64,000 nucleotides of DNA, from the NCBI RefSeq assembly GCF_900110425.1, contig NZ_FODS01000005.1:1-64000 (forward strand). The letters are read 5' to 3'. This document shows positions 3,271-16,380 of this stretch, in pieces; the stretch's first letter is position 1; every line of letters starts with the position of its first letter. This DNA comes from Salinihabitans flavidus. Lineage in GTDB: Bacteria; Pseudomonadota; Alphaproteobacteria; Rhodobacterales; Rhodobacteraceae. Under the pieces are notes generated by a model, which worked only from the letters and a program-made list of their open reading frames with translations, ran no database searches and was not told the origin of the DNA. A program made the position numbers and the translations under genes.

Positions 3271-5286
3271 TCAAAGGCCGTTGCGCGGGATGACCTCGTC
3301 CCAATTGTCCTCATGCACAAGGGTTCCGTCTTGCCATGCCAGAAGGTGCGCCGCGACGCGAAATTCCGATACCGTGCAGGTCAGCCGCGTTGTTGTCTCG
3401 GTCCGGATTTCCCAACCGTCCCGGCGCATCTCGTGAGTCCATGTTACCTCGCCCTCGGCAGAGGCGGGATCGTCCGGAAGGACCGAATAGCGCTCGATCC
3501 CTTCGGCGGAATGCGTGATCCCGTGCTCGGTGATATGCGCGGCGCCCTCATGGTCGCGCACCTCGACGACAAGGCGTCCGGTGTCGGCGTCTTCGGACAT
3601 GATCCATTCCGATTGCGGCGGTGTCACGAAGCTCTGGTCCAGCGGCATCCCGGCGCGCGGCGCAGCAAAGGTGGGTTCCGCCTCGGGCGTGTCGCTGCGT
3701 AGCGGCAGGGTCAGCGTGGTTTGGGCCGTGTCCACGTGCAGCGTGACAGGCGCCGGCGCGGGCCATGCCAGCGGGAAATAGCTGGTCGACAGGCTCAGCC
3801 GGATACGGTGCCCGGCGCGGAACGTCTGCGCGACATGTTTCATCGGCACATGGACGGTGTAGGTCTGCCCCGGTGTCAGCGGTTCGGGATGCTCGTGGCC
3901 ATCGCGGTGGGTGAGGTTCAGCAGGCCGTAGCTGACCCGTGTGGCGGCTCCGTCCGGGGCCACATCGACAAGCCGCACGGCCACCTGCGCGACCGGGCTA
4001 TCGGCGGTGAAGCTCAGGGTCAGAATCTGGTCACCCACCATGTGCAGCGGCTCGGGCAGGGGGGCGGTGTCGAATGTCAGGCTACCGGCATCGTCGCGCC
4101 GCTGATCGCCGGGCTGATCGCCGGGATGCGCATAGGAGCACCACTTGCCTCCATGCCGTCCAACCCAGAGTGGTGAGGCGATCGCAAGCTGCCCGTCGGG
4201 CAGATCGCAGTTGGCCGACAACCGCCCGTCCGAGCCGAGCGTAAAATCGGTGCGGATTATGTTGGGCGACGGCCAGGCGGGTTCGGTGATCCAGTGCCCG
4301 TCGCGTTGGGGGTAGTGCGTGGCCGGACGGGCATGATCCTGCAGGAACACGCGCAGCGGTGGTTCGTTCATGATGCCGGTGTCGATGCCCTTGAGCCATT
4401 GGTCCCACCAGCGGGTTTCCTCGCTCAGCCAATCGATCGCCGGGCCCGGTTCGCCGACATGCGGGTAGCGGTGCGCCCATGGTCCGACGAACCCTTTCAC
4501 CGGTCCTTTCAGATTTTCGACCAGACGGAACACGCTGCGGCAATAGCCATCCGCCCATCCGCTGACCGCGTAGACGGGGATCTTGATGTCGGAGTAATCC
4601 TCGCAGATCGAGCCGTGTTTCCAGAAATCATCCCGCGTCTGATGTTCCAGCCAATTCTTGAGCCACAGGCCCGACCCCTTGAGCCGCGCCTTCCACATGT
4701 CGCGCCAGCGCTCGCCCACATGCACAGGGTCGGGCGGCAAGGTGTTGATGCCGAACATCACCGACGCCCAGGACAGGTGATCGCACAGCAGCGTGCCGCC
4801 CATGTAGTGGACGTCATCGGCATAGCGGTCATCGGTGGAAGAGATCGAGACGACCGCCTTGAGCGCAGGCGGCTGAAGCGCCGCCAGTTGCAGGCCGTTA
4901 AACCCGCCCCAGGAAATGCCGACGATGCCGACACCGCCCTCGCACCACGCCTGATCGGCGATCCAGGCGATGACATCACAGCCGTCCTGCAATTCGGTTT
5001 CCGTGTACTCATCTGTCATCACGCCTTCGGATTCGCCAGTGCCGCGCAGATCGACGCGGACATAGGCATAGCCGCGCGCCGCCAGCCATGGCGCGCGGGC
5101 GTGGTCCCGCTCCAGCGTCTTGTCGTTTTTGCGGTAGGGGATGTATTCGAGGATCGCCGGAACCGGCTGCGTCTCCGCCCCCTCGGGCATCCAGATACGC
5201 GCGGCAAGCCTGGTGCCGTCCGGCATGGGAATCTCGAGGTGTTCGATCTCGCGGATCGCGGCGGGAAGCGGGTGGTCGATTTTCAT
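3271..5286 (-). CDS. CocE/NonD-family (S15-like) serine hydrolase
   Basis: The 671-residue protein is an alpha/beta hydrolase with a beta-sandwich C-terminal part, the layout of cocaine esterase, alpha-amino acid ester hydrolases and X-Pro dipeptidyl peptidases. Visible motifs are VDLRGTGESEG (oxyanion side, residues 78-88), GISWGGF with the nucleophile Ser125, SGWADGYCRS carrying the acid, and GPWAHRYPH carrying the histidine. There is no signal peptide, so it acts in the cytoplasm. The ATG at 5286 matches the family start. It lies last in the cphB-cphA-ATP-grasp series, 86 bases after the ATP-grasp gene, so cleavage of an amide or ester made by those enzymes is a reasonable guess. The true substrate is unknown. 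Confidence 0.8.
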   Translation of the reverse strand: MKIDHPLPAAIREIEHLEIPMPDGTRLAARIWMPEGAETQPVPAILEYIPYRKNDKTLERDHARAPWLAARGYAYVRVDLRGTGESEGVMTDEYTETELQDGCDVIAWIADQAWCEGGVGIVGISWGGFNGLQLAALQPPALKAVVSISSTDDRYADDVHYMGGTLLCDHLSWASVMFGINTLPPDPVHVGERWRDMWKARLKGSGLWLKNWLEHQTRDDFWKHGSICEDYSDIKIPVYAVSGWADGYCRSVFRLVENLKGPVKGFVGPWAHRYPHVGEPGPAIDWLSEETRWWDQWLKGIDTGIMNEPPLRVFLQDHARPATHYPQRDGHWITEPAWPSPNIIRTDFTLGSDGRLSANCDLPDGQLAIASPLWVGRHGGKWCSYAHPGDQPGDQRRDDAGSLTFDTAPLPEPLHMVGDQILTLSFTADSPVAQVAVRLVDVAPDGAATRVSYGLLNLTHRDGHEHPEPLTPGQTYTVHVPMKHVAQTFRAGHRIRLSLSTSYFPLAWPAPAPVTLHVDTAQTTLTLPLRSDTPEAEPTFAAPRAGMPLDQSFVTPPQSEWIMSEDADTGRLVVEVRDHEGAAHITEHGITHSAEGIERYSVLPDDPASAEGEVTWTHEMRRDGWEIRTETTTRLTCTVSEFRVAAHLLAWQDGTLVHEDNWDEVIPRNGL

Positions 5287-5372
5287 GGGGGCGTTCCGGA
5301 CTGATGCAGAGAAGGGGGAGCACGGGCAGGCTATCGCGCTTTGAGAGTGTGAAGTCCAGAGCGCCCCGTCTT

Positions 5373-6671
5373 CTATTCGACGATATCGGTGAATTCGTAG
5401 TTCAGCCGCTTCATCACCTGTTCGTAATTCCACAGGAGTTTGGACTGCTTGCCCGCCCCCATCCAGACAGAGGCGACGGCGTAACTGTAGGCGTCTTGTT
5501 CGGGCAGTTCCGACAGCTTCATGCCGCGTGCGACGTAAGAGGCGATGCGCGTTCCTTCGACCTGCTCGGCGGCTACCTCGATCTCTGCCTTGGAGGGCGC
5601 GCGCGCGATGGTCGCGTCGTTGAAGAACACCCGGTAGAAGAACTCTCCAGCGACATTCTCCGGCCCTTCGCCCTTGGGCATGTCAGGTCTGCGCCCAAGC
5701 CCCAGATCGACGGTCACCTGCTGATGGCTGACGCCATCGACCATCTCGAAGAGGTCGCAATGCGACTGCGCGATGCGGGTGTTGATCTCCAGCAGCCAGA
5801 TCTTGTTCTGCACCTCGTCCCAGTAATACTCGATATTGAAGCCGGCATTGTCATAACCGATGTGCGCCATGACCTTGCGGGTGATCTCGTTCATCTGGTC
5901 CTGCACAGGGCGCGGCAGGGTCGAAGGATAGAGGTAGTAGAAAAAGCTCAAAACCTGTGGGTAGCGGATCGAATCCACTGTGCCATAGGGGACAACCTCG
6001 CCCTCGTGCACATAGCCCTCGACCGTGCATTGCCGCCCGCCGATCACCCGCTCGGCCATGCAGTAGTGGCCTTCGATCGCCTTGATGTCATCGGGCAGGT
6101 CGGCCTGATCCAGCACGTAGTTGAACGGTTCGGAAATCTGGCCGATCTCGGCGCGAAAGGCGGCGATGGCGTAGTCGAAATCCTCGGGGCTGTCGATGCG
6201 GAAGCCAAGGCGAGAGCCAGACGACTTGATCGGCTTGACGAAGAACGGAAAGCGCAGATCGGCCTCACCGATTTTCGACAGCGCGTCATCGTCGAACGGA
6301 TCGAAAGCGGTGAAGGTCGGGGTGTGGTCGGGCACGATCTCGGCCATCACCTTGCGCGACCAGTATTTGTGCTCGCATTTCAGCAGGCTTTCCAGCGAGG
6401 CGTTGCGTGTGCCGTACTTCTTGCACAAGAGCGGCAGCATCGTGGAGACCGGAAAGTCGATATAACCGACGATCGCGTCGATAGAGCCGTCGAAGGCGTC
6501 GAGCGTCGCCTCGGCCTCGGCCAGCATTGCGGGGATGTCGAATTCCTGCGTGTCCGATACCGCCTCGGATGTCAGCAGCGGGTGAAAGACCACGTCCTCC
6601 ACGCCCCGCAGCCGCCTGAGCCGCTCGGCGTTGAGATCGTTCATTCCGACGACGAAAACATTTCTTGTCAT
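5373..6671 (-). CDS. Stand-alone ATP-grasp carboxylate-amine ligase-like protein
   Basis: The 432-residue protein has an ATP-grasp fold: a pre-ATP-grasp Rossmann part (1-100), FPFFVKPIKSSGSRLG at 141-156 with the ATP-binding lysine 147, AERVIGGRQCTVEGYV at 206-221, and GYDNAGFNIEYYW followed by LLEINTR at 293-299, the metal-binding end of the active site. Such enzymes activate a carboxylate as acyl phosphate and join it to an amine or thiol. It lies 75 bases downstream of cyanophycin synthetase in the same direction. It could modify or cap the polymer or its dipeptides, or make an unrelated peptide; the sequence alone does not decide. It is not a D-Ala-D-Ala ligase by its overall pattern. Confidence 0.75.
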   Translation of the reverse strand: MTRNVFVVGMNDLNAERLRRLRGVEDVVFHPLLTSEAVSDTQEFDIPAMLAEAEATLDAFDGSIDAIVGYIDFPVSTMLPLLCKKYGTRNASLESLLKCEHKYWSRKVMAEIVPDHTPTFTAFDPFDDDALSKIGEADLRFPFFVKPIKSSGSRLGFRIDSPEDFDYAIAAFRAEIGQISEPFNYVLDQADLPDDIKAIEGHYCMAERVIGGRQCTVEGYVHEGEVVPYGTVDSIRYPQVLSFFYYLYPSTLPRPVQDQMNEITRKVMAHIGYDNAGFNIEYYWDEVQNKIWLLEINTRIAQSHCDLFEMVDGVSHQQVTVDLGLGRRPDMPKGEGPENVAGEFFYRVFFNDATIARAPSKAEIEVAAEQVEGTRIASYVARGMKLSELPEQDAYSYAVASVWMGAGKQSKLLWNYEQVMKRLNYEFTDIVE

Positions 6672-6746
6672 TCCTGCGGTCCTCTCATCTCAGGTCAGGC
6701 GGGGCTCCACCGCTCGGGGATGTCGTTGCCGCGCGGCCCTCGCGGC

Positions 6747-9389
6747 TCATGTCTGGGCCAGATCGGCCTGAACCGGGAAGCTGCGACCCTTGAGCCGCTC
6801 GGCGGTGCCGACGATATCATCAACGAGCAAAAGCAGGAAATCGCCTGGCCTAGCCTCCTCGATTGCATGGCTCACGGCCTCCGGCTCGGTCATGATGACA
6901 TGAACCGCGCAGTCCGACCCGGCCCCGGTGGCTCCCTCCTGGATCAGGCGGGCCACTTCGCCCTCGGTGCGACCGCGCGCGTCGGATTCGTAGACGTAAA
7001 GAATGTCGCACATTCTGGCGAGCTGCGCGCCAAGCGCCGCCAGATCCTCGTCACGGCGGTTGCCCGGCGCGGTGGAGACCCCGATCCTGCGTTGCTGGGC
7101 CAAACCGTTGACCAGCGGCTCCAGCGCTTCGAGCGCGGGAACGTTGTGGCCATAGTCGATCAGGTATTTGACGCCATCGGCCTCGAAATAGTTGGTCCGT
7201 CCCGGCATCTGCGCCGGGGTCGGATGGAAGGTCAGCAACCCGGCGCGGATATCCTCGATGTCCAGACCATGCGCCAGCGCGATTGCTGTTGCGGCCATCG
7301 CGTTCTGCACGTTGAAGGGCGCGTGCCCCTCGAAGGCGATTGGCACGTCGTTGACATCGACCACTTCGACCATGACCTTGCCACGCAAGACGACAATACG
7401 CCCGTGTCGCACGGTGACGACCATGCGCATCTCGCTCAGGTGGTCCTGCAGCGCGGTGTTGTCGGGATCCATGGTGAAGTAGATGATTTCGCCGCGCGCC
7501 CAATAGGTGCCATGTTCCATTACCAGCGGATCGTCGGCGTTGAGCACGCAGTAGCCGCCATCCTTCTTGACCGCGTCCACGACCACGGTCTTGCAGCGCG
7601 CCAGTTCGTCCAGCGTGTGAATGTCACGCTCGCCCAGATGATCCGACGCGATGTTCAGGAGCACGCCGACATCGCATTCATCAAACCCCAGCCCCCGACG
7701 CATTATGCCGCCGCGCGCCACTTCCAGCACGGCATGTTCAACCGTGGGTTCGCGCAGCACGGCCTGTGCTGCGGCCGGGCCGGAATAATCTCCGCGCAGG
7801 ATCACGTGGTTGTCGATCTCGACCGTCCCGGTGCATCCCATGCCCACGGAATGCCCGGATTGCCGCAGGAGATGCGTGGTCAGGCGCGTCGTCGTGGTCT
7901 TGCCGTTGGTCCCGGTGATCGCTGTGATCGGGATGCGGCCATTGTCGGTGGGGTCGGGAAACAGCATGTCGACCACATGTTCGCCCACGGGCCGCGGGGT
8001 GCCGTGGGTGGGCGCCATGTGCATCCGGAACCCGGGCCCGGCATTCACCTCGACCACGCCCGCCGATTGCTGATCAAGCGGCTTGGTCAGGGTTTCCGCC
8101 AGAAGGTCGATGCCGATCACGTCGAGCCCGACAAGGCGGGCGATCCGTTCCATCGCGAACTTGATATCGGGATGCACCTCGTCGGTCAAGTCGGTCGCCG
8201 TCCCTCCGGTCGAGATATTGGCGGTGGACTTGAGAAACACCATCTCGCTCTCGGCGGGCACGCTTTCGAGTGTGAGCCCCGCCTGTTCGAGCATGCGGTG
8301 CGTCTGCTCGTCCACAAGAATCTGGGTGAGCAGGTTTTCATGGCCGACACCGCGCCGGGGATCCTCGTTGGCCTTGTCGATCAATGCCTTGATCGTCGAT
8401 CTGCCGTCCCCGGTGACATGAGCGGGGCGGCGGCGGGCCGCAGCGATCAGCTTGCCGCCGATCACCAGCATGCGGTGATCCTCGCCATTGATATAGCTTT
8501 CGACGATCACAGCGGGGGAGTCGTCGCGCAGCCGTGCAAGCGCCGCCTCATAGCCTGACTTCAAGTCTTCCATGCTGGCGATGTTCGTGGTCACACCGCG
8601 TCCGTGATTGCCCGCAAGCGGCTTTGTGACCACCGGCCAGCCGATCCACTCAGCGGCTTCTTTCACATCGTCCCAGGAGTGGCAGGTGTAGCCCTTGGGC
8701 ACGGCCACGCCCGCATCACCGAGGATCTGCTTGGTCCAGTCCTTGTCGTCGGCGATGGAGTGGCCGATGATCCCCGAGGCATCCGTTACCGTGGCCTGAA
8801 ATCGGCGCTGTTTCACGCCGTGGCCCAGCTGGGTGTAGCTGGTGCCCGCCGTCAGATTGTAATGCGGGATGTTGCGCGCCTTGGCGGCATCGACAATGGC
8901 CCCGGTCGAGGGGCCGAGCGCGTTGGCGTCGCGCACCTGCTTGAGGTGGTCGATAATCGGGGGCAGATCGACATAGCCGCCGTCATAAAGCTTGCGCACG
9001 ATATCGACAGCCGCCTCGCCCGCCGCGATGCCGGTGGTCTCGTCGCGGTAGCGGTAGATGACGTTGTAAATGCCGGGCTCATAGCTGTCGACGGTCTTGC
9101 CGTAGCCGACGGAGAATCCGACAAGGTTTTGCAATTCGATTGCCACATGCTCGACCATATGGCCGGCATAGGTGCCATTGCGCACCCGCTGCAAGAAGCC
9201 GCCGGGCTCACCAACCGAGCAGCGGTGACCGTAAATCGTTGGAAAGACGGCCTCCAGGCTTTCGGCGATACCGGGCACCTCGTCACTGGGTCGATCTTCG
9301 AGATCCTCGATATCAAGCCGCATGAATATCGCTTGATAGCGGCTGTAGTAATTTGGCCCGCGCAGCGCGCGATGCTCAATTATACGCAT
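6747..9389 (-). CDS. cphA: Cyanophycin synthetase
   Basis: The 880-residue enzyme has the three-part build of CphA1: an N-terminal domain (about 1-160), an ATP-grasp domain (about 200-480) with KPLAGNHGRGVTT near 255 and VVEVNAGPGFRMH near 455, and a Mur-ligase-like domain with the P-loop GTNGKTTTT near 491-499, LEVARGGIMRRGL, and a C-terminal GNRRDED. The ATP-grasp part adds Asp to the backbone and the Mur part adds the Arg side chain, giving multi-L-arginyl-poly-L-aspartate, a nitrogen and carbon store. The P-loop is intact, unlike in the degraded CphA2 type. Its start overlaps the end of cphB by 14 bases, which suggests translational coupling. Confidence 0.95.
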   Translation of the reverse strand: MRIIEHRALRGPNYYSRYQAIFMRLDIEDLEDRPSDEVPGIAESLEAVFPTIYGHRCSVGEPGGFLQRVRNGTYAGHMVEHVAIELQNLVGFSVGYGKTVDSYEPGIYNVIYRYRDETTGIAAGEAAVDIVRKLYDGGYVDLPPIIDHLKQVRDANALGPSTGAIVDAAKARNIPHYNLTAGTSYTQLGHGVKQRRFQATVTDASGIIGHSIADDKDWTKQILGDAGVAVPKGYTCHSWDDVKEAAEWIGWPVVTKPLAGNHGRGVTTNIASMEDLKSGYEAALARLRDDSPAVIVESYINGEDHRMLVIGGKLIAAARRRPAHVTGDGRSTIKALIDKANEDPRRGVGHENLLTQILVDEQTHRMLEQAGLTLESVPAESEMVFLKSTANISTGGTATDLTDEVHPDIKFAMERIARLVGLDVIGIDLLAETLTKPLDQQSAGVVEVNAGPGFRMHMAPTHGTPRPVGEHVVDMLFPDPTDNGRIPITAITGTNGKTTTTRLTTHLLRQSGHSVGMGCTGTVEIDNHVILRGDYSGPAAAQAVLREPTVEHAVLEVARGGIMRRGLGFDECDVGVLLNIASDHLGERDIHTLDELARCKTVVVDAVKKDGGYCVLNADDPLVMEHGTYWARGEIIYFTMDPDNTALQDHLSEMRMVVTVRHGRIVVLRGKVMVEVVDVNDVPIAFEGHAPFNVQNAMAATAIALAHGLDIEDIRAGLLTFHPTPAQMPGRTNYFEADGVKYLIDYGHNVPALEALEPLVNGLAQQRRIGVSTAPGNRRDEDLAALGAQLARMCDILYVYESDARGRTEGEVARLIQEGATGAGSDCAVHVIMTEPEAVSHAIEEARPGDFLLLLVDDIVGTAERLKGRSFPVQADLAQT

Positions 9390-10236
9390 TCATTTTCTCC
9401 AGTATCGTCGTCCCGCGCTCGTCCGCCTTCAGGACACGCCGGTCCGACAGGCTATAGGCGTCGCCGTCGACGAGCGCGTGCATTGTGACGTTGTGGACAC
9501 TCACCGCCTCACCTTCCGCCAAATCGAATACATTGGAACCGGTGATACCCGAGCTGTCAACGAGGATGACGTGACCGGGGCCGAAGGCGTGGATTATATC
9601 GTCATCAAAGAGAACCGCGGCATCTTCGCCCAGGCCCACCCCAAGATATTCGGGATTTGTCGCGCCCACTTCCATCAGGCGCGAAAAGCGTCCCCGTTCA
9701 AGAAAATGTGTATCGATGATCACCCCGTCGATCAGTCCAAACCCCGCAGTCATCCTGACCGCGCCCTTGCGCAGCGAATCGACCGCATCCCCACCATACA
9801 CCATCGTGGTCGACTGACAGGCCGCCCCGGCGCTTGTGCCGGCGATGACCCCTCCATCCTCATACCGCCTGCGAATGGCGGTCAAGGCGGTGGATCCGCC
9901 GAAAATGCTGGTCAGGCGCATCTGATCGCCGCCGGATATGAAAATCACGTCGCTTTGTTTGATCATGTCGATCATCGCCGCATTCGTGGCGTCTGCCCGT
10001 TCGCGAATCCGGATATCCATGATCTCACTGGCGCCAAGCCGTTCAAAAACCTTGCGATATACCGCGAACACCTCATCGGGGATGCTGCTGGCCGTGGTGA
10101 TCACGCCGACCCGGGGATCGGGCATTGGCGCGAATTTCAGCACTTGGCGCAGAATGTCGGTTTCCGAGTCCTTGTCCTCGGCGCCGCCAATGGCAACAAG
10201 CTTGCCGCGTGGCGCGGGGTGAATCGGCATGTTCAT
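9376..10236 (-). CDS. cphB: Cyanophycinase (peptidase family S51)
   Basis: The 286-residue enzyme cuts cyanophycin to beta-Asp-Arg dipeptides. It carries GKLVAIGGAEDK at the N-terminus, FISGGDQMRL, and the nucleophile elbow AGTSAGAACQS, as in S51 cyanophycinases. No signal peptide is seen, so it acts on intracellular granules. The ATG at 10236 is chosen because GGAG lies seven bases upstream; the frame is open to 10254, but that start lacks a site. It is the first gene of the minus-strand cph series and is divergent from the isoaspartyl peptidase gene, so storage and breakdown share one control region. Confidence 0.93.
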   Translation of the reverse strand: MNMPIHPAPRGKLVAIGGAEDKDSETDILRQVLKFAPMPDPRVGVITTASSIPDEVFAVYRKVFERLGASEIMDIRIRERADATNAAMIDMIKQSDVIFISGGDQMRLTSIFGGSTALTAIRRRYEDGGVIAGTSAGAACQSTTMVYGGDAVDSLRKGAVRMTAGFGLIDGVIIDTHFLERGRFSRLMEVGATNPEYLGVGLGEDAAVLFDDDIIHAFGPGHVILVDSSGITGSNVFDLAEGEAVSVHNVTMHALVDGDAYSLSDRRVLKADERGTTILEKMNAYN

Positions 10237-10254
10237 CAAGGTTCTCCAGTCCAC

Positions 10255-10271
10255 TGTAGACAGTATCTACA
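10255..10271. promoter_or_regulatory. Inverted repeat TGTAGA-N5-TCTACA, possible operator
   Basis: A perfect 6-base inverted repeat with a 5-base spacer lies 18 bases upstream of the cphB start, in the divergent cphB/iaaA region. The position suits a repressor or attenuator acting on cphB-cphA. No binding protein is known from the sequence; the nearby LysR regulator is one candidate, although LysR sites usually follow T-N11-A. Confidence 0.4.
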
Positions 10272-10357
10272 TATTGTGGAATTCATCACGACACAAACAA
10301 GATTGATTTTGGGCGGCTTCAGGCAATATGTGGCTGTCATGGCGTAACGTGACAAGA

Positions 10358-10378
10358 CCCGCCTAAAACTTAGGCGGG
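10358..10378. promoter_or_regulatory. Strong palindrome CCCGCCTAA-N3-TTAGGCGGG in iaaA leader
   Basis: Nine-base arms match perfectly around a three-base loop, 29 bases upstream of the iaaA start and about 120 bases from cphB. It could be an operator, or a hairpin in the iaaA leader RNA that works as an attenuator. No T run follows, so a simple intrinsic terminator is less likely. Confidence 0.5.
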
Positions 10379-10407
10379 CCGCAGGTGGCTGGCAGAGGGA
10401 CACAAAC

Positions 10408-11337
10408 ATGACAAAGGGTTTTGCCTTGGCCATTCACGGAGGCGCCGGAGTTGTGCCTCGGACGCAGATGACGGCCGAACGCGAAGCGGCGTGCCGCGCC
10501 GCGCTGTCTCGGGCATTGCGCGCCGGTGAGACTGTGCTGGCGGCGGGTGGCGCGGCGCTTGATGGCGTGACAGCTGCCGTTTCGGCGCTTGAGGACGAGC
10601 CATTGTTCAACGCCGGGCGCGGAGCCGTCTTCACGCGCGATGGCAGGCACGAAATGGACGCCGCCATCATGGACGGGAAAAGCCGCCGCGCGGGGGCGGT
10701 GGCGGGTATTGCCGGACTGCGCAACCCGGTGCAGCTTGCCCGGGCGGTGATGGAGCAGACGGACCACGTCATGATGATTGGCGAAGGCGCGTTGACCGTC
10801 GCGCGCGACGCCGGCCTTGCGTTTGAGGAGGACGCCTATTTCTTCACGCAGGAGCGGTGGGACAGCTTGCAGGACACCCTGCGTATGCAGGCGGAGGGCA
10901 CGCTTGACGATGATCTCTCCCGCCGCCACGGCACGGTCGGAGCGGTGGCGCGCGACCGTCAGGGCAACCTCGCCACTGCCACATCGACGGGCGGGATGAC
11001 GGCAAAGCGTGCGGGGCGTGTGGGCGACAGCCCGATCATCGGTGCGGGCACCTTTGCCGACAACGCCACCTGCGCCGTGTCGGCCACCGGCGACGGCGAA
11101 GCGTTTATCCGCCGCGTCGCGGCGCACGAGATCGACGCCCGAATGCGCCACATCGGTCAATCGCTGGCCGACGCCGCCAAACATGTCGTGCAGGTCGATC
11201 TGGCCACGCATGAAGGCTCTGGTGGACTGATAGCAATCGACAGTGAGGGCAACATTGTCATGCCCTTCAATTGCGAAGGCATGTATCGCGGTAGCGTTCG
11301 GGAGGGGGAGCCCGGCCAGACGGCGGTCTATGAGTGA
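10408..11337 (+). CDS. iaaA: Isoaspartyl peptidase / type 2 (plant-type) L-asparaginase
   Basis: The 309-residue protein is an N-terminal nucleophile hydrolase that is cleaved to alpha and beta chains. The self-cleavage site is RHGTVGAVARD with the nucleophile Thr176, followed by ATSTGGM and GDSPIIGAGTFAD, and AIHGGAGVV lies near the N-terminus. Enzymes of this family split beta-aspartyl dipeptides such as beta-Asp-Arg, the product of cyanophycinase, to Asp and Arg. Its divergent position next to cphB supports that role. The gene is full length and starts with ATG within GC-rich leader DNA that contains a strong palindrome. Confidence 0.92.
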   Translation: MTKGFALAIHGGAGVVPRTQMTAEREAACRAALSRALRAGETVLAAGGAALDGVTAAVSALEDEPLFNAGRGAVFTRDGRHEMDAAIMDGKSRRAGAVAGIAGLRNPVQLARAVMEQTDHVMMIGEGALTVARDAGLAFEEDAYFFTQERWDSLQDTLRMQAEGTLDDDLSRRHGTVGAVARDRQGNLATATSTGGMTAKRAGRVGDSPIIGAGTFADNATCAVSATGDGEAFIRRVAAHEIDARMRHIGQSLADAAKHVVQVDLATHEGSGGLIAIDSEGNIVMPFNCEGMYRGSVREGEPGQTAVYE

Positions 11338-13673: not shown

Positions 13674-15917
13674 TCACAGGAAGCTCACCGCCTTGGAGAA
13701 GGGCATCTCACGCAGTCGTGTGCCCGTGGCGGCGAAGATTGCACCGGCCAGCGCCGGGGCGGCGGGGGGGACGGGCGGCTCTCCGATGCCGCGGATGGCG
13801 TCGCCGTTTTCAAGGCCGCGCACCTCGATCCGCGGACTCTGGCGCAGGCGCATCCCCTCGAAGCTGTGGAAATTGTCCTGCTCGGCGCGGCCATCAGCAT
13901 AGGTGATCTCGCAATTCATGGCGTGGCCGAGGCCGAAGATCACGCCGCCCTTCACCAGATTGTCGAAATTCACCGGGTCGAGCACGCGGCCCACCTCCGC
14001 CGCGCACCAGACGGAGTCGAGGCGAATCCCGTTGGGGGTGTCGGTGATCTCCACGACCTCGGCGCAATGCACGCCGAAAGACTGGGTCAGCGCAACACCG
14101 CGCCCGCGCCCTGCGGCGGGGGCCGGACCGTCCCAGCCGGACATCTCGGCCACCGCCTCCAGCACCGCGCGGGCGAGCGGGTCGTTGCACAGGCGCAGAC
14201 GCTCGGCCATCGGATCGGCACCGGCGGCGTCGATCAACTCATCGAGCGCTGCGTTGTAGAAAAATCCGTTCGAGGATGCCCCGACAGAGCGCCATGAACT
14301 GATCGGGGCAAGGGGCGCCGCGCGGTATCCGGTGACGCGGTGATGGGGGATGCCGAAGGGCTGATCGAAGGCGCCGGCGACGATCTGGCTGTCGGGGCCG
14401 GGCACACTCTGCCCCTGCCGCCGCATTTGCGAGGTGATGACCGAGGGCATGGCGAGCGACAGGTCGAGCGCCTCAACGCGCCCGTCGCGGACCGCACCAC
14501 GCATCCGTGCCATGGCGATCTGGCGCGGGAAGTCGTGGGTCATGTCCTCTTCGCGGCTGTAGGTGAGCTTGACGGGCGTTCCCTTCATCTGCGCCGCGAT
14601 CTCGGTGGCGCGCTTGACAACCTCATCCTCCAGCCGGTGGCCGAAGCTGCCGCCGATCATGAGCGCGTGAACGGTGACCTGATCGGGGTCCAGCCCGGCG
14701 ATGCGGGCGACGTTCTGCTGCACGAAGCGGGGAATCTGCGTGCCGGTCCAGACCTCGGCGGCCTCCTCATCCACGCGCACGAGCGCGTTGACTGGCTCCA
14801 GCGGGGCGTGGGCGAGATAGGGCGCGCGATACTCCGCGCTGAGCGGCGCGGCGGCGGACAGCACTTCCTCCACGTCGCCATCATCGCGCTTGCGGCTGTC
14901 TTGCCGGTCCTCGGTAAAGGCGTCCGACAGGGCCTCCCAATGAGCGTCCATTTCGGCGGGGAAGGGGGAAGGGCCCCAGTCGGCGGTGATCGCACGGGCG
15001 GCGCGGAAGGCGCGCCATGTGTTGTCCGCCACGATGCCGAGCCCGCCGGTGATCGGCACGACCGCGCTTACCCCGCGCATGGCGAGCGCGGCGGAGGCAT
15101 CATGCCCGCGCAACTCCCCGCCCTGCGCGGGGTTGAGCAGGATGGCGGCGTGGACCATGCCCGGCACGGCGGCGTCGATGCCATAGTCTTGCGTGCCGGT
15201 GGATTTGGCCACGATGTCGATGCGCCGCATCGGTTTGCCCAGTATCTGCCATTGCGACGGATCGCGCAGCGGGACATCCTGCACGACCTCAAGATCGGCG
15301 GCGGTGGCGGCCAGATCGGTGTAGGCGATGCGCTCGCCCCCCGGAAGCAGCACGGCGCCGGCTTCGGTGGACAGCCGGTCCAGCGCGATGCCGGTCTGTT
15401 CGGAAGCGGCGCGTTTCAATGTCTCGCGCGCCGAGGCGCCCGCCTGCCGCAGTTTCACGAAGCCGTCGGGCACGGTGGTGGAGCCGCCGGTGATCTGCAT
15501 CCCAAGGAATTTCATCACGGCGTCGATGGTGCCATGAACGGCGGAGTTCATAAGCCCGTCTCCCGGCGCGGTGAAGGCGGCGGCCTCTTCGGACAGGGCG
15601 GTGTTCCAATAGGCTCTGTCTGGCGGGCCGGGATCGGTGTGGATCTGGTCGAGCGTCGCGTCAAGCTCTTCAGCAATGAGCGCGGCCTGCACCGAATCCG
15701 CGCCTTGCCCCATATCGGCGCGCGGGGTGATCAGGGTGATACCGCCGGCGTCGATCCTCACATAAGGGGTGAGCGCCGCCGCGCCCGGCTCCAGTTCGTC
15801 CAGAAGCGGGTTGGGGTAGGGGCTGCGGTAGCGATAGATCCCGAAGGCCACGCCCCCGGCGACGGCGACGGAGCCGACAAGGAATGAGCGGCGGGCGATT
15901 TTTGCGATACGTCCCAT
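13674..15917 (-). CDS. Molybdopterin-binding subunit, IorB-like aldehyde/isoquinoline oxidoreductase
   Basis: The 747-residue large subunit begins with a Tat signal, RRSFLVGSVAVAGGVAFG (residues 9-26), so the enzyme works in the periplasm. It belongs to the xanthine dehydrogenase family in its two-subunit IorAB form. Motifs seen are IGGSFGHRLEDEV, the arginine- and glycine-rich cofactor loops, and RGIGEPPVPP near the end with the conserved glutamate. The gene follows the 2Fe-2S subunit by four bases. Such enzymes hydroxylate N-heterocycles or oxidise aldehydes and usually pass electrons to a cytochrome; no cytochrome gene is adjacent. The substrate cannot be told from the sequence. Confidence 0.85.
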   Translation of the reverse strand: MGRIAKIARRSFLVGSVAVAGGVAFGIYRYRSPYPNPLLDELEPGAAALTPYVRIDAGGITLITPRADMGQGADSVQAALIAEELDATLDQIHTDPGPPDRAYWNTALSEEAAAFTAPGDGLMNSAVHGTIDAVMKFLGMQITGGSTTVPDGFVKLRQAGASARETLKRAASEQTGIALDRLSTEAGAVLLPGGERIAYTDLAATAADLEVVQDVPLRDPSQWQILGKPMRRIDIVAKSTGTQDYGIDAAVPGMVHAAILLNPAQGGELRGHDASAALAMRGVSAVVPITGGLGIVADNTWRAFRAARAITADWGPSPFPAEMDAHWEALSDAFTEDRQDSRKRDDGDVEEVLSAAAPLSAEYRAPYLAHAPLEPVNALVRVDEEAAEVWTGTQIPRFVQQNVARIAGLDPDQVTVHALMIGGSFGHRLEDEVVKRATEIAAQMKGTPVKLTYSREEDMTHDFPRQIAMARMRGAVRDGRVEALDLSLAMPSVITSQMRRQGQSVPGPDSQIVAGAFDQPFGIPHHRVTGYRAAPLAPISSWRSVGASSNGFFYNAALDELIDAAGADPMAERLRLCNDPLARAVLEAVAEMSGWDGPAPAAGRGRGVALTQSFGVHCAEVVEITDTPNGIRLDSVWCAAEVGRVLDPVNFDNLVKGGVIFGLGHAMNCEITYADGRAEQDNFHSFEGMRLRQSPRIEVRGLENGDAIRGIGEPPVPPAAPALAGAIFAATGTRLREMPFSKAVSFL

Positions 15918-15921
15918 GATC

Positions 15922-16380
15922 CTACCCCTCCTGAAGGCGGGTTGCGGCCGTTTTCACGGCGGCGCGGATGCGCGGATAGGTGCCGCAGCGGCACAGGTTG
16001 CCGGAGAGGGCGTCGTTGATGTCGTCATCGGTGGGGGCGGGGGTTTCGGCCAGAAGGGCGGCCGCCTGCATGATCTGGCCCGACTGGCAATAGCCGCATT
16101 GCGCCACCTGATGTTCGATCCATGCCGCCTGTACCGCGTGAAGTGCCTTCGGCGTGCCGAGCCCCTCGATCGTGGTGACGGGGCCCCAGACATCCGCCGC
16201 CAATACCTGGCAGGCGCGAGCGGCCTCGCCGTCGATGTGGACGGTGCAGGCGCCGCATTGCGCGATGCCGCAGCCGTATTTCACCCCGGTGATGCCAAGC
16301 TCGTCGCGCAGCACCCACAGCAGCGGCATGTCCTCTTCGACGTCGACCTCGTGGGTCGTTCCGTTCACGGTGATCTGCAT
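15922..16380 (-). CDS. 2Fe-2S subunit of the IorAB-like oxidoreductase
   Basis: The 152-residue protein carries both iron-sulfur clusters of the family: a plant-ferredoxin-type site in [15 protein letters not shown] and an alpha-helical site in CGYCQSGQ plus [11 protein letters not shown]. It has no signal peptide and presumably travels with the Tat-exported large subunit. It is the first gene of the pair and starts with ATG at 16380. Length and motif spacing are normal for IorA and CoxS-type subunits. Confidence 0.9.

Follow-up and report, generated by a model that had tools for sequence, protein, structure and literature searches.

A cyanophycin gene cluster in Salinihabitans flavidus (Rhodobacteraceae) carries two further genes, one for an ATP-grasp protein and one for a hydrolase of the CocE family, and we found that this arrangement is a genuine variant of the cyanophycin locus that is conserved and follows a strong co-occurrence rule. 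The cluster lies in a stretch of 64,000 nucleotides (nt) from contig NZ_FODS01000005.1 (assembly GCF_900110425.1), which we call the window, and it also holds the genes for cyanophycin synthetase (cphA), cyanophycinase (cphB), and an isoaspartyl aminopeptidase (iaaA). The rule is that one clade of CphA is accompanied by one type of ATP-grasp protein (type I). The mechanism behind the rule is our proposal: we lean toward the view that the ATP-grasp protein forms, and the hydrolase cleaves, a small amide that the polymer of this CphA/CphB clade either requires or gives rise to.

In the genomes examined, one clade of CphA implies a type I ATP-grasp gene

We called an ATP-grasp protein type I if it scored above 700 bits with a profile (A1), and all lower matches were called type II. 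The next match below type I had 467 bits in the Halomonadaceae sample (the lower matches ranged from 244 to 467 bits) and 442 bits in the sample of alphaproteobacteria (254 to 442 bits). cphA was counted only above the TIGR02068 cut-off, and cphB was searched for in the Halomonadaceae sample only. The genome samples overlap in part.

Among 121 Halomonadaceae genomes, 39 had cphA and 53 had a type I gene. All 39 of the cphA genomes had both, and no genome had cphA without type I (Fisher's test, p = 2.9e-20); cphB was found in the same 39 genomes. (One genome, G449, has a CphA-like match of 627 bits and no type I gene; this match is under the cut-off and was not counted as cphA.) In a within-genus permutation of the 111 genomes of known genus, both genes would be expected together in 32.8 genomes, and the observed 39 was not reached in any of 20,000 permutations. 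The 10 of 121 genomes without a genus were left out, and no type I, type II, cphA, cphB, or urease gene is listed for any of them. As a control, type II genes were found in 9 of 39 cphA genomes and in 10 of 82 others (p = 0.18; within genus, 0.36). A second control, urease, was found in 32 of 39 cphA genomes and 48 of 82 others (p = 0.013; within genus, 0.09). Overall, the link between the type I ATP-grasp gene and cyanophycin is supported statistically.

A preliminary description of this DNA had tied the ATP-grasp gene to cyanophycin, which held up, and had expected the pair not to lie mostly away from cphA, which held only in part. In Halomonadaceae, type I is within 5 kb of cphA in 17 of the 39 genomes. 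In the other 22, the two genes are at least 340 kb apart on one contig (5 genomes) or are on different contigs of draft assemblies (17 genomes, and this is by itself no proof of distance). In six of these 22 genomes, there is no type I gene within the 16 kb that were read around cphA. With so many of the genomes (22 of 39) lacking a type I gene within 5 kb of cphA, the co-occurrence rule does not just reflect linkage.

The same match between CphA and type I is seen in other samples. Among 279 alphaproteobacteria, type I is present in two genomes, the window's own (G000) and G589, and a CphA with at least 60% identity to the window's is present in exactly the same two; six other genomes in this sample have a CphA at 37–45% identity, and type I is found in none of them. 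Among 149 Rhodobacterales, the four genomes with type I are all among the 15 with cphA, and in a sample of the phylum (299 genomes), the two genomes with type I are both among the 22 with cphA. By identity to the window's protein, the CphAs that we measured (among them those from 12 of these 15 Rhodobacterales and 20 of these 22 phylum-sample genomes, and individually from at most a minority of the 39 Halomonadaceae) form two sets, at 63% or more and at 45% or less. In the samples examined, the rule is one-way: this CphA clade implies type I.

We also considered 37 genomes that were reached through type I loci. cphA is present in 25 of these, and the other 12 are 11 Halomonadaceae (which may overlap with 14 genomes of the Halomonadaceae sample that have type I without cphA) and one metagenome-assembled genome (MAG) of 2.4 Mb. 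On the type I tree, the “no cphA” label changes at least 8 times (starred branches force 5 of these changes), a pattern in keeping with repeated losses of cphA while type I was retained; gains are also possible. In Thermodesulfobacteriota, type I is on three MAG contigs, of which two also carry cphBA; the third genome has its cphA on another contig, and misbinning is possible.

The ATP-grasp/CocE pair is also found apart from cphA

The window's ATP-grasp protein matched 457 stretches, and we fetched the best 80, which together with the window give 81 loci. These best matches lean toward close kin, and some of the contigs are short. We called genes with a codon-usage-based caller of our own making, and its hit table may leave out genes with ill-fitting ends. 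The hosts of type I are the window, other Rhodobacterales, Halomonadaceae, Rhodovibrionaceae, and some MAGs from Thermodesulfobacteriota.

In 74 of the 81 loci (in two of these, with an intervening gene), the ATP-grasp gene has a CocE gene downstream in the same orientation and within 1.5 kb, and the median gap is 68.5 nt. cphA is present in 54 loci, on the same strand as the ATP-grasp gene in 48 of them, and iaaA is present in 42. A divergent cphB-cphA pair adjoins in five of the 80 fetched loci. These counts show that the gene order is more than chance. The Rhodobacterales loci mostly repeat the order of the window, but in Halomonadaceae the pair is mostly flanked by unrelated genes.

The pair does not depend on cphA. 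CocE still comes next after type I in the 11 Halomonadaceae without cphA that were reached through loci, and it follows the ATP-grasp gene in G392, a genome with neither cphA nor cphB. A CocE gene also follows the type II ATP-grasp gene in six of seven cases (overlapping it by 1–4 nt in four of the six), and the phylum sample has six genomes with type II, all of them without cphA. Together, the ATP-grasp and CocE genes form an independent module of two genes, which can be present where cphA is not. The idea that the pair is purely an add-on to cyanophycin metabolism did not survive, given these type II pairs and the 14 Halomonadaceae with type I but no cphA or cphB.

The window's ATP-grasp protein is 63–67% identical to type I proteins of Halomonadaceae and 37–42% identical to type II proteins, for which no link to cphA was seen. 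(One protein, from locus L144, is intermediate between the types at 47% identity.) The window's CocE protein is 51–55% identical to the partners of type I in Halomonadaceae and 49–53% identical to the partners of type II. Because identity drops far more for the ATP-grasp protein than for the hydrolase at type II, and because the seven loci without a nearby CocE have cphA in the locus or the genome, it looks as if the ATP-grasp enzyme, rather than the hydrolase, is the cyanophycin-specific member of the pair.

The neighbors of the type II pairs and of the stand-alone Halomonadaceae pairs gave no clue to the substrate. Those scanned were unrelated genes, including TelA, MFS, flavin reductase, ThiI, luciferase-like, aldose epimerase, CoA-transferase, amine oxidase, erythromycin esterase, and GGDEF genes and others. 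In a collection of plasmids, seven records matched, all of them distant (25–35% identity).

A few loci have other arrangements. In Fodinicurvata, iaaA, the ATP-grasp gene, and CocE are in line and cphBA is on another contig. In L053 and L049, iaaA immediately precedes the ATP-grasp gene on the same strand; cphA and cphB are convergent beside them in L053 and on another contig (L143) in the case of L049. In a Desulfobacteraceae MAG (L050:7079-8014), a carbamoyltransferase gene with OTCace domains adjoins the ATP-grasp gene, which may be a hint of arginine metabolism. In a Rhodovibrio MAG (G571; L144:9408-14681), genes for a C26 peptidase/GATase, an amidoligase (PF12224), and the intermediate ATP-grasp protein adjoin cphB-cphA. 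This genome has its type I gene elsewhere (on a separate contig, L080), and L144 is a second ligase/hydrolase set beside cph genes.

Features of the cyanophycin locus in the window, with the evidence for each
Feature	Position	Strand	Evidence
iaaA-like isoaspartyl aminopeptidase gene	10408-11337	+	PF01112, 352 bits
cphB, cyanophycinase (S51)	9376-10254	-	TIGR02069, 225.8 bits (exceeds cut-off of 126.6)
cphA, cyanophycin synthetase, distinct clade	6747-9389	-	TIGR02068, 1111.5 bits (exceeds cut-off of 850)
type I ATP-grasp protein, 432 amino acids, probable amino-acid ligase	5373-6671	-	PF13535, 39.7 bits (exceeds cut-off of 27)
CocE/NonD (S15-like) serine hydrolase, about 671 amino acids	3271-5286	-	TIGR00976, 259.3 bits (exceeds cut-off of 66.3); PF02129, 236.6 bits
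spacer between the divergent cphB and iaaA, presumed to hold promoters	10255-10407	none	no consensus sigma-70-type site found

The five genes of the cluster are real and correctly placed. Family scans bear out the identities that the preliminary description had assigned to them. As a correction to it, iaaA is divergent from cphB, cphA, the ATP-grasp gene, and CocE. The IaaA-like protein scores 328.8 bits with the NCBIfam beta-aspartyl-peptidase model, which is under that model's cut-off of 567, and among the listed NCBIfam matches of the ATP-grasp protein, none reaches its cut-off. Two starts could be placed differently: cphB has an alternative ATG at 10236 that may be the true start, and the list of open reading frames (ORFs) has a longer GTG start for CocE at 5433, which would overlap the ATP-grasp gene.

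The four genes plausibly form a single transcript, given the overlap of cphB with cphA and the short gaps from cphA to the ATP-grasp gene (75 nt) and from there to CocE (86 nt). In a scan of the minus strand, the four genes contain no terminator-like site, and the one beyond them is about 240 nt past the end of CocE; this is weak evidence, as the scan found fewer sites than in shuffled sequence. No consensus sigma-70-type site was found between cphB and iaaA. Farther along the window, beyond a LysR-like ORF, two ORFs (13674-16380) resemble by eye the large subunit and the 2Fe-2S small subunit of a molybdenum hydroxylase.

A proposed role for the pair

The type I ATP-grasp protein is probably an amino-acid ligase. 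Its profile match to the L-amino acid ligase BL00235 (PDB 3VOT) is weak (E = 0.0013, residues 129-321). For the hydrolase, residues S125, D246, H272, and Y51, which we take to be positions with catalytic roles in cocaine esterase, are kept in 85 of 85 aligned proteins.

We infer the chemistry of the ligase, its substrates, and the direction of its link to cyanophycin as follows. The type I enzyme would spend ATP to join amino acids into a small peptide-like amide, and the CocE-type hydrolase would break the same amide, which would give a self-contained make-and-break module. This is the simplest reading of the pair because the hydrolase is beside the ATP-grasp gene even where there is no cphA. 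Type I would then have become a regular companion of one CphA/CphB clade, and the likeliest cause of this companionship is that the amide, or a pool that it feeds, shares a metabolic route with the polymer. In outline, CphA would build the polymer, CphB would cut it to dipeptides of beta-aspartate and a second unit (beta-Asp-X), IaaA or another isoaspartyl dipeptidase would release aspartate and X, and the ATP-grasp/CocE pair would make or break X or a soluble partner of X. The gene order in Fodinicurvata, with iaaA in line with the pair and cphBA elsewhere, fits such a hand-over from beta-Asp-X to X.

The synthetase of this clade appears functional. The residues of its G and M sites (H267, R309, N394, S396, D585, and H586, as identified in excerpts of PMC9427784 and PMC9262961) are present in 64 of 64 clade members, as mapped by motif. 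The N-domain motif Cx19HxxEH is whole in 54 of 54 clade CphAs, and each of its four residues is present in 64 of 64 of the wider set. Because the synthetic-site and primer-site residues are intact in all 64, the clade's CphA is, as judged from its sequence, a working CphA1.

Relative to 25 other CphAs, the clade differs at 14 positions (conserved in at least 95% of the clade and at least 90% of the others). Four of these are marked changes within the arginine-adding M domain: G521 for D, E524 for Y, V750 for P, and N777 for D. The characterized CphA of Synechocystis (7LG5) has the common residue at each of the four. In our alignment, N777 lies in a conserved Mur-ligase motif, the one aligned to GDRD of MurE from E. 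coli K-12 (MurE 388-391), and not in the acceptor motif equivalent to DNPR of MurE, which the alignment puts further downstream. We also considered as a special trait that the clade has S, G, or A in place of Glu215 of TeCphA1, and rejected this because Glu is absent from 14 of the 25 other CphAs too. In CphB, the clade has T or S in 62 of 62 proteins (T in the window) where 3EN0 and 7UQV have Q.

A bolder form of our reading, which we regard as doubtful, is that the polymer is an analogue of cyanophycin whose side chain is a unit built by the type I enzyme instead of plain arginine. The altered M domain would attach this unit to poly-aspartate, the matching CphB clade would release beta-Asp-X, a promiscuous IaaA or another isoaspartyl dipeptidase would free X, and CocE would split X to amino acids; this would be a nested storage polymer that comes with a dedicated source of its monomer. 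It would explain the one-way rule (with the ligase sometimes occurring without CphA, as the maker of a free solute), the order of genes in Fodinicurvata, and the residues private to CphA (G521, E524, V750, and N777) and, in CphB, the T or S that replaces Q. Known enzymology allows for an unusual X: according to excerpts of PMC10206079, RhIaaA, from the cph cluster of Roseivivax halodurans, hydrolyzes the beta-Asp-X dipeptides that were tested without a preference for arginine or lysine. As background, part of PMC8050183 reports that CphAs accept lysine, ornithine, or citrulline under overexpression.

Distant CphAs may have partners of another kind. In loci L129-L131 and L133-L136 (for example, L130:9196-10935), cphA is followed by a separate gene for a protein of about 576–613 amino acids that matches only the M part of CphA (the copy in L130 matches only the Mur-ligase middle and C-terminal domains), and this may be the distant clade's own accessory ligase. 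In many CphA genomes of the phylum sample (for example, L116, L122, and L126), a second CphA-like gene (model positions about 1-721) adjoins cphA.

Several observations weigh against a make-and-break module that serves the polymer. Biotin carboxylases outscore 3VOT as matches to the ATP-grasp protein (2VPQ, E = 1.1e-5, to the C-terminal half), so its assignment to a class rests on weak matches. Type I occurs without cphA or cphB in 14 of the 53 Halomonadaceae that have it, which together with the 11 cphA-less Halomonadaceae reached through loci indicates that the module has a use without the polymer. Conversely, type I is missing from 11 of the 15 Rhodobacterales with cphA (all eight that were measured have a distant CphA) and from 20 of the 22 cphA genomes of the phylum sample (all 18 that were measured, likewise), so cyanophycin as such does not need it. 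No CocE is nearby in 7 of the 81 loci. As for the statistics, urease is mildly associated with cphA on its own, related genomes are not independent and the permutation controls for genus alone, and 17 of the 22 unlinked cases come from draft contigs.

Of the other explanations, the most serious is that the pair synthesizes and breaks down a free compatible solute or a soluble nitrogen store (a dipeptide-like amide) independently of the polymer, and that both traits suit nitrogen-limited halophiles. We consider this a possibility of some weight, if not a probable one. It accounts for the type II pairs in cphA-less genomes (all six type II genomes in the phylum sample), for the 14 Halomonadaceae with type I alone, and for the CocE genes that follow type I in 11 cphA-less relatives; many of the named hosts of type I loci belong to genera that we take to be halophiles, and on the type I tree, type I persists through the changes in cphA. 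However, a shared habitat poorly explains why all 39 cphA genomes in one family have type I and none lacks it, why there is an excess even within genera, or why type I matches one CphA clade exactly among alphaproteobacteria. Type II, which is also present in that family of bacteria, shows no link to cphA. The idea that the two enzymes add and remove a group on the finished polymer draws on the placement of the ATP-grasp gene right after cphA in the same orientation (in 48 of 54 loci with both) and on how type I tracks the CphA clade, yet we think it improbable: the same kind of pair exists without cphA, and all seven loci without a nearby CocE come from genomes or loci with cphA. Also, the window's CocE is about as distant from the partners of type I in Halomonas as from those of type II, so the hydrolase shows no sign of adaptation to a polymeric substrate.

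Two narrower roles fared no better. If the ATP-grasp enzyme made primers for CphA, this would explain why no Halomonadaceae has cphA without type I. But Cx19HxxEH, which excerpts of PMC9262961 describe as conferring primer independence on CphA, is intact in every clade CphA in which we looked for the whole motif, and 14 genomes have type I and no cphA, so primer synthesis is disfavored and in our judgment very improbable. The other candidate is CocE as the missing isoaspartyl dipeptidase of cyanophycin breakdown; the gene adjoins cph genes and is named as a candidate in part of PMC10206079. Against this, iaaA is already present in 42 of 81 loci, an amidohydrolase (perhaps IadA) adjoins cphA in the three Halomonadaceae cph loci that were scanned, and CocE follows the ATP-grasp gene in the 11 cphA-less Halomonadaceae and in G392. 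We disfavor this role, and give it little credence, because the gene is not confined to genomes with cyanophycin genes.

Comparison with known systems

The three cph genes of the window are those of a known cluster, cphA1-cphB with iaaA (PMC10206079). Sharon and colleagues (2023) counted cph gene clusters in that study; its main text does not contain the term “ATP-grasp.” According to excerpts of the same paper, a gene in NZ_SJEY01000003 that is weakly similar to cocaine esterase might have isoaspartyl dipeptidase activity, and one of our loci (L030) comes from this record. Another locus with the gene order of the window (L024) is from R. halodurans, the species whose cph cluster yielded RhIaaA. 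This locus belongs to strain JCM 10272, which is presumably the same strain as DSM 15395 of the RhIaaA study. In the open-licence literature, judged mostly by title, we recognized no published link between an ATP-grasp gene and cyanophycin, which is no proof that none exists. Likewise, we found no description of the type I/II split or of the co-occurrence rule, and the excerpted part of PMC7824335 holds nothing on such a module.

Synthesis of N-acetylglutaminylglutamine amide is a small-amide pathway with an ATP-grasp ligase, and no such gene set was seen beside the window's pair. With the NCBIfam model TIGR03103, CphA matched below the cut-off and the ATP-grasp protein did not match. The L-amino acid ligases share the PF13535 domain with the type I protein, but as profiles they match it weakly and less well than biotin carboxylases do. 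The hydrolase shares both its family (CocE/NonD) and the four conserved positions with cocaine esterase 1JU3; it differs in being about 85–100 residues longer than the listed cocaine esterase chains and in that the CocEs of this module regularly adjoin an ATP-grasp gene.

Cyanophycin metabolism is usually treated as closed, with a synthetase, a cyanophycinase, and a dipeptidase. Here, an extra and probably amide-bond-forming enzyme accompanies one branch of cyanophycin synthesis in salt-loving bacteria. That its gene goes with one synthetase clade in 39 of 39 genomes, often away from cphA, hints either that a step is missing from this picture or that the polymer differs; an altered side chain, if true, would matter for polymer engineering.

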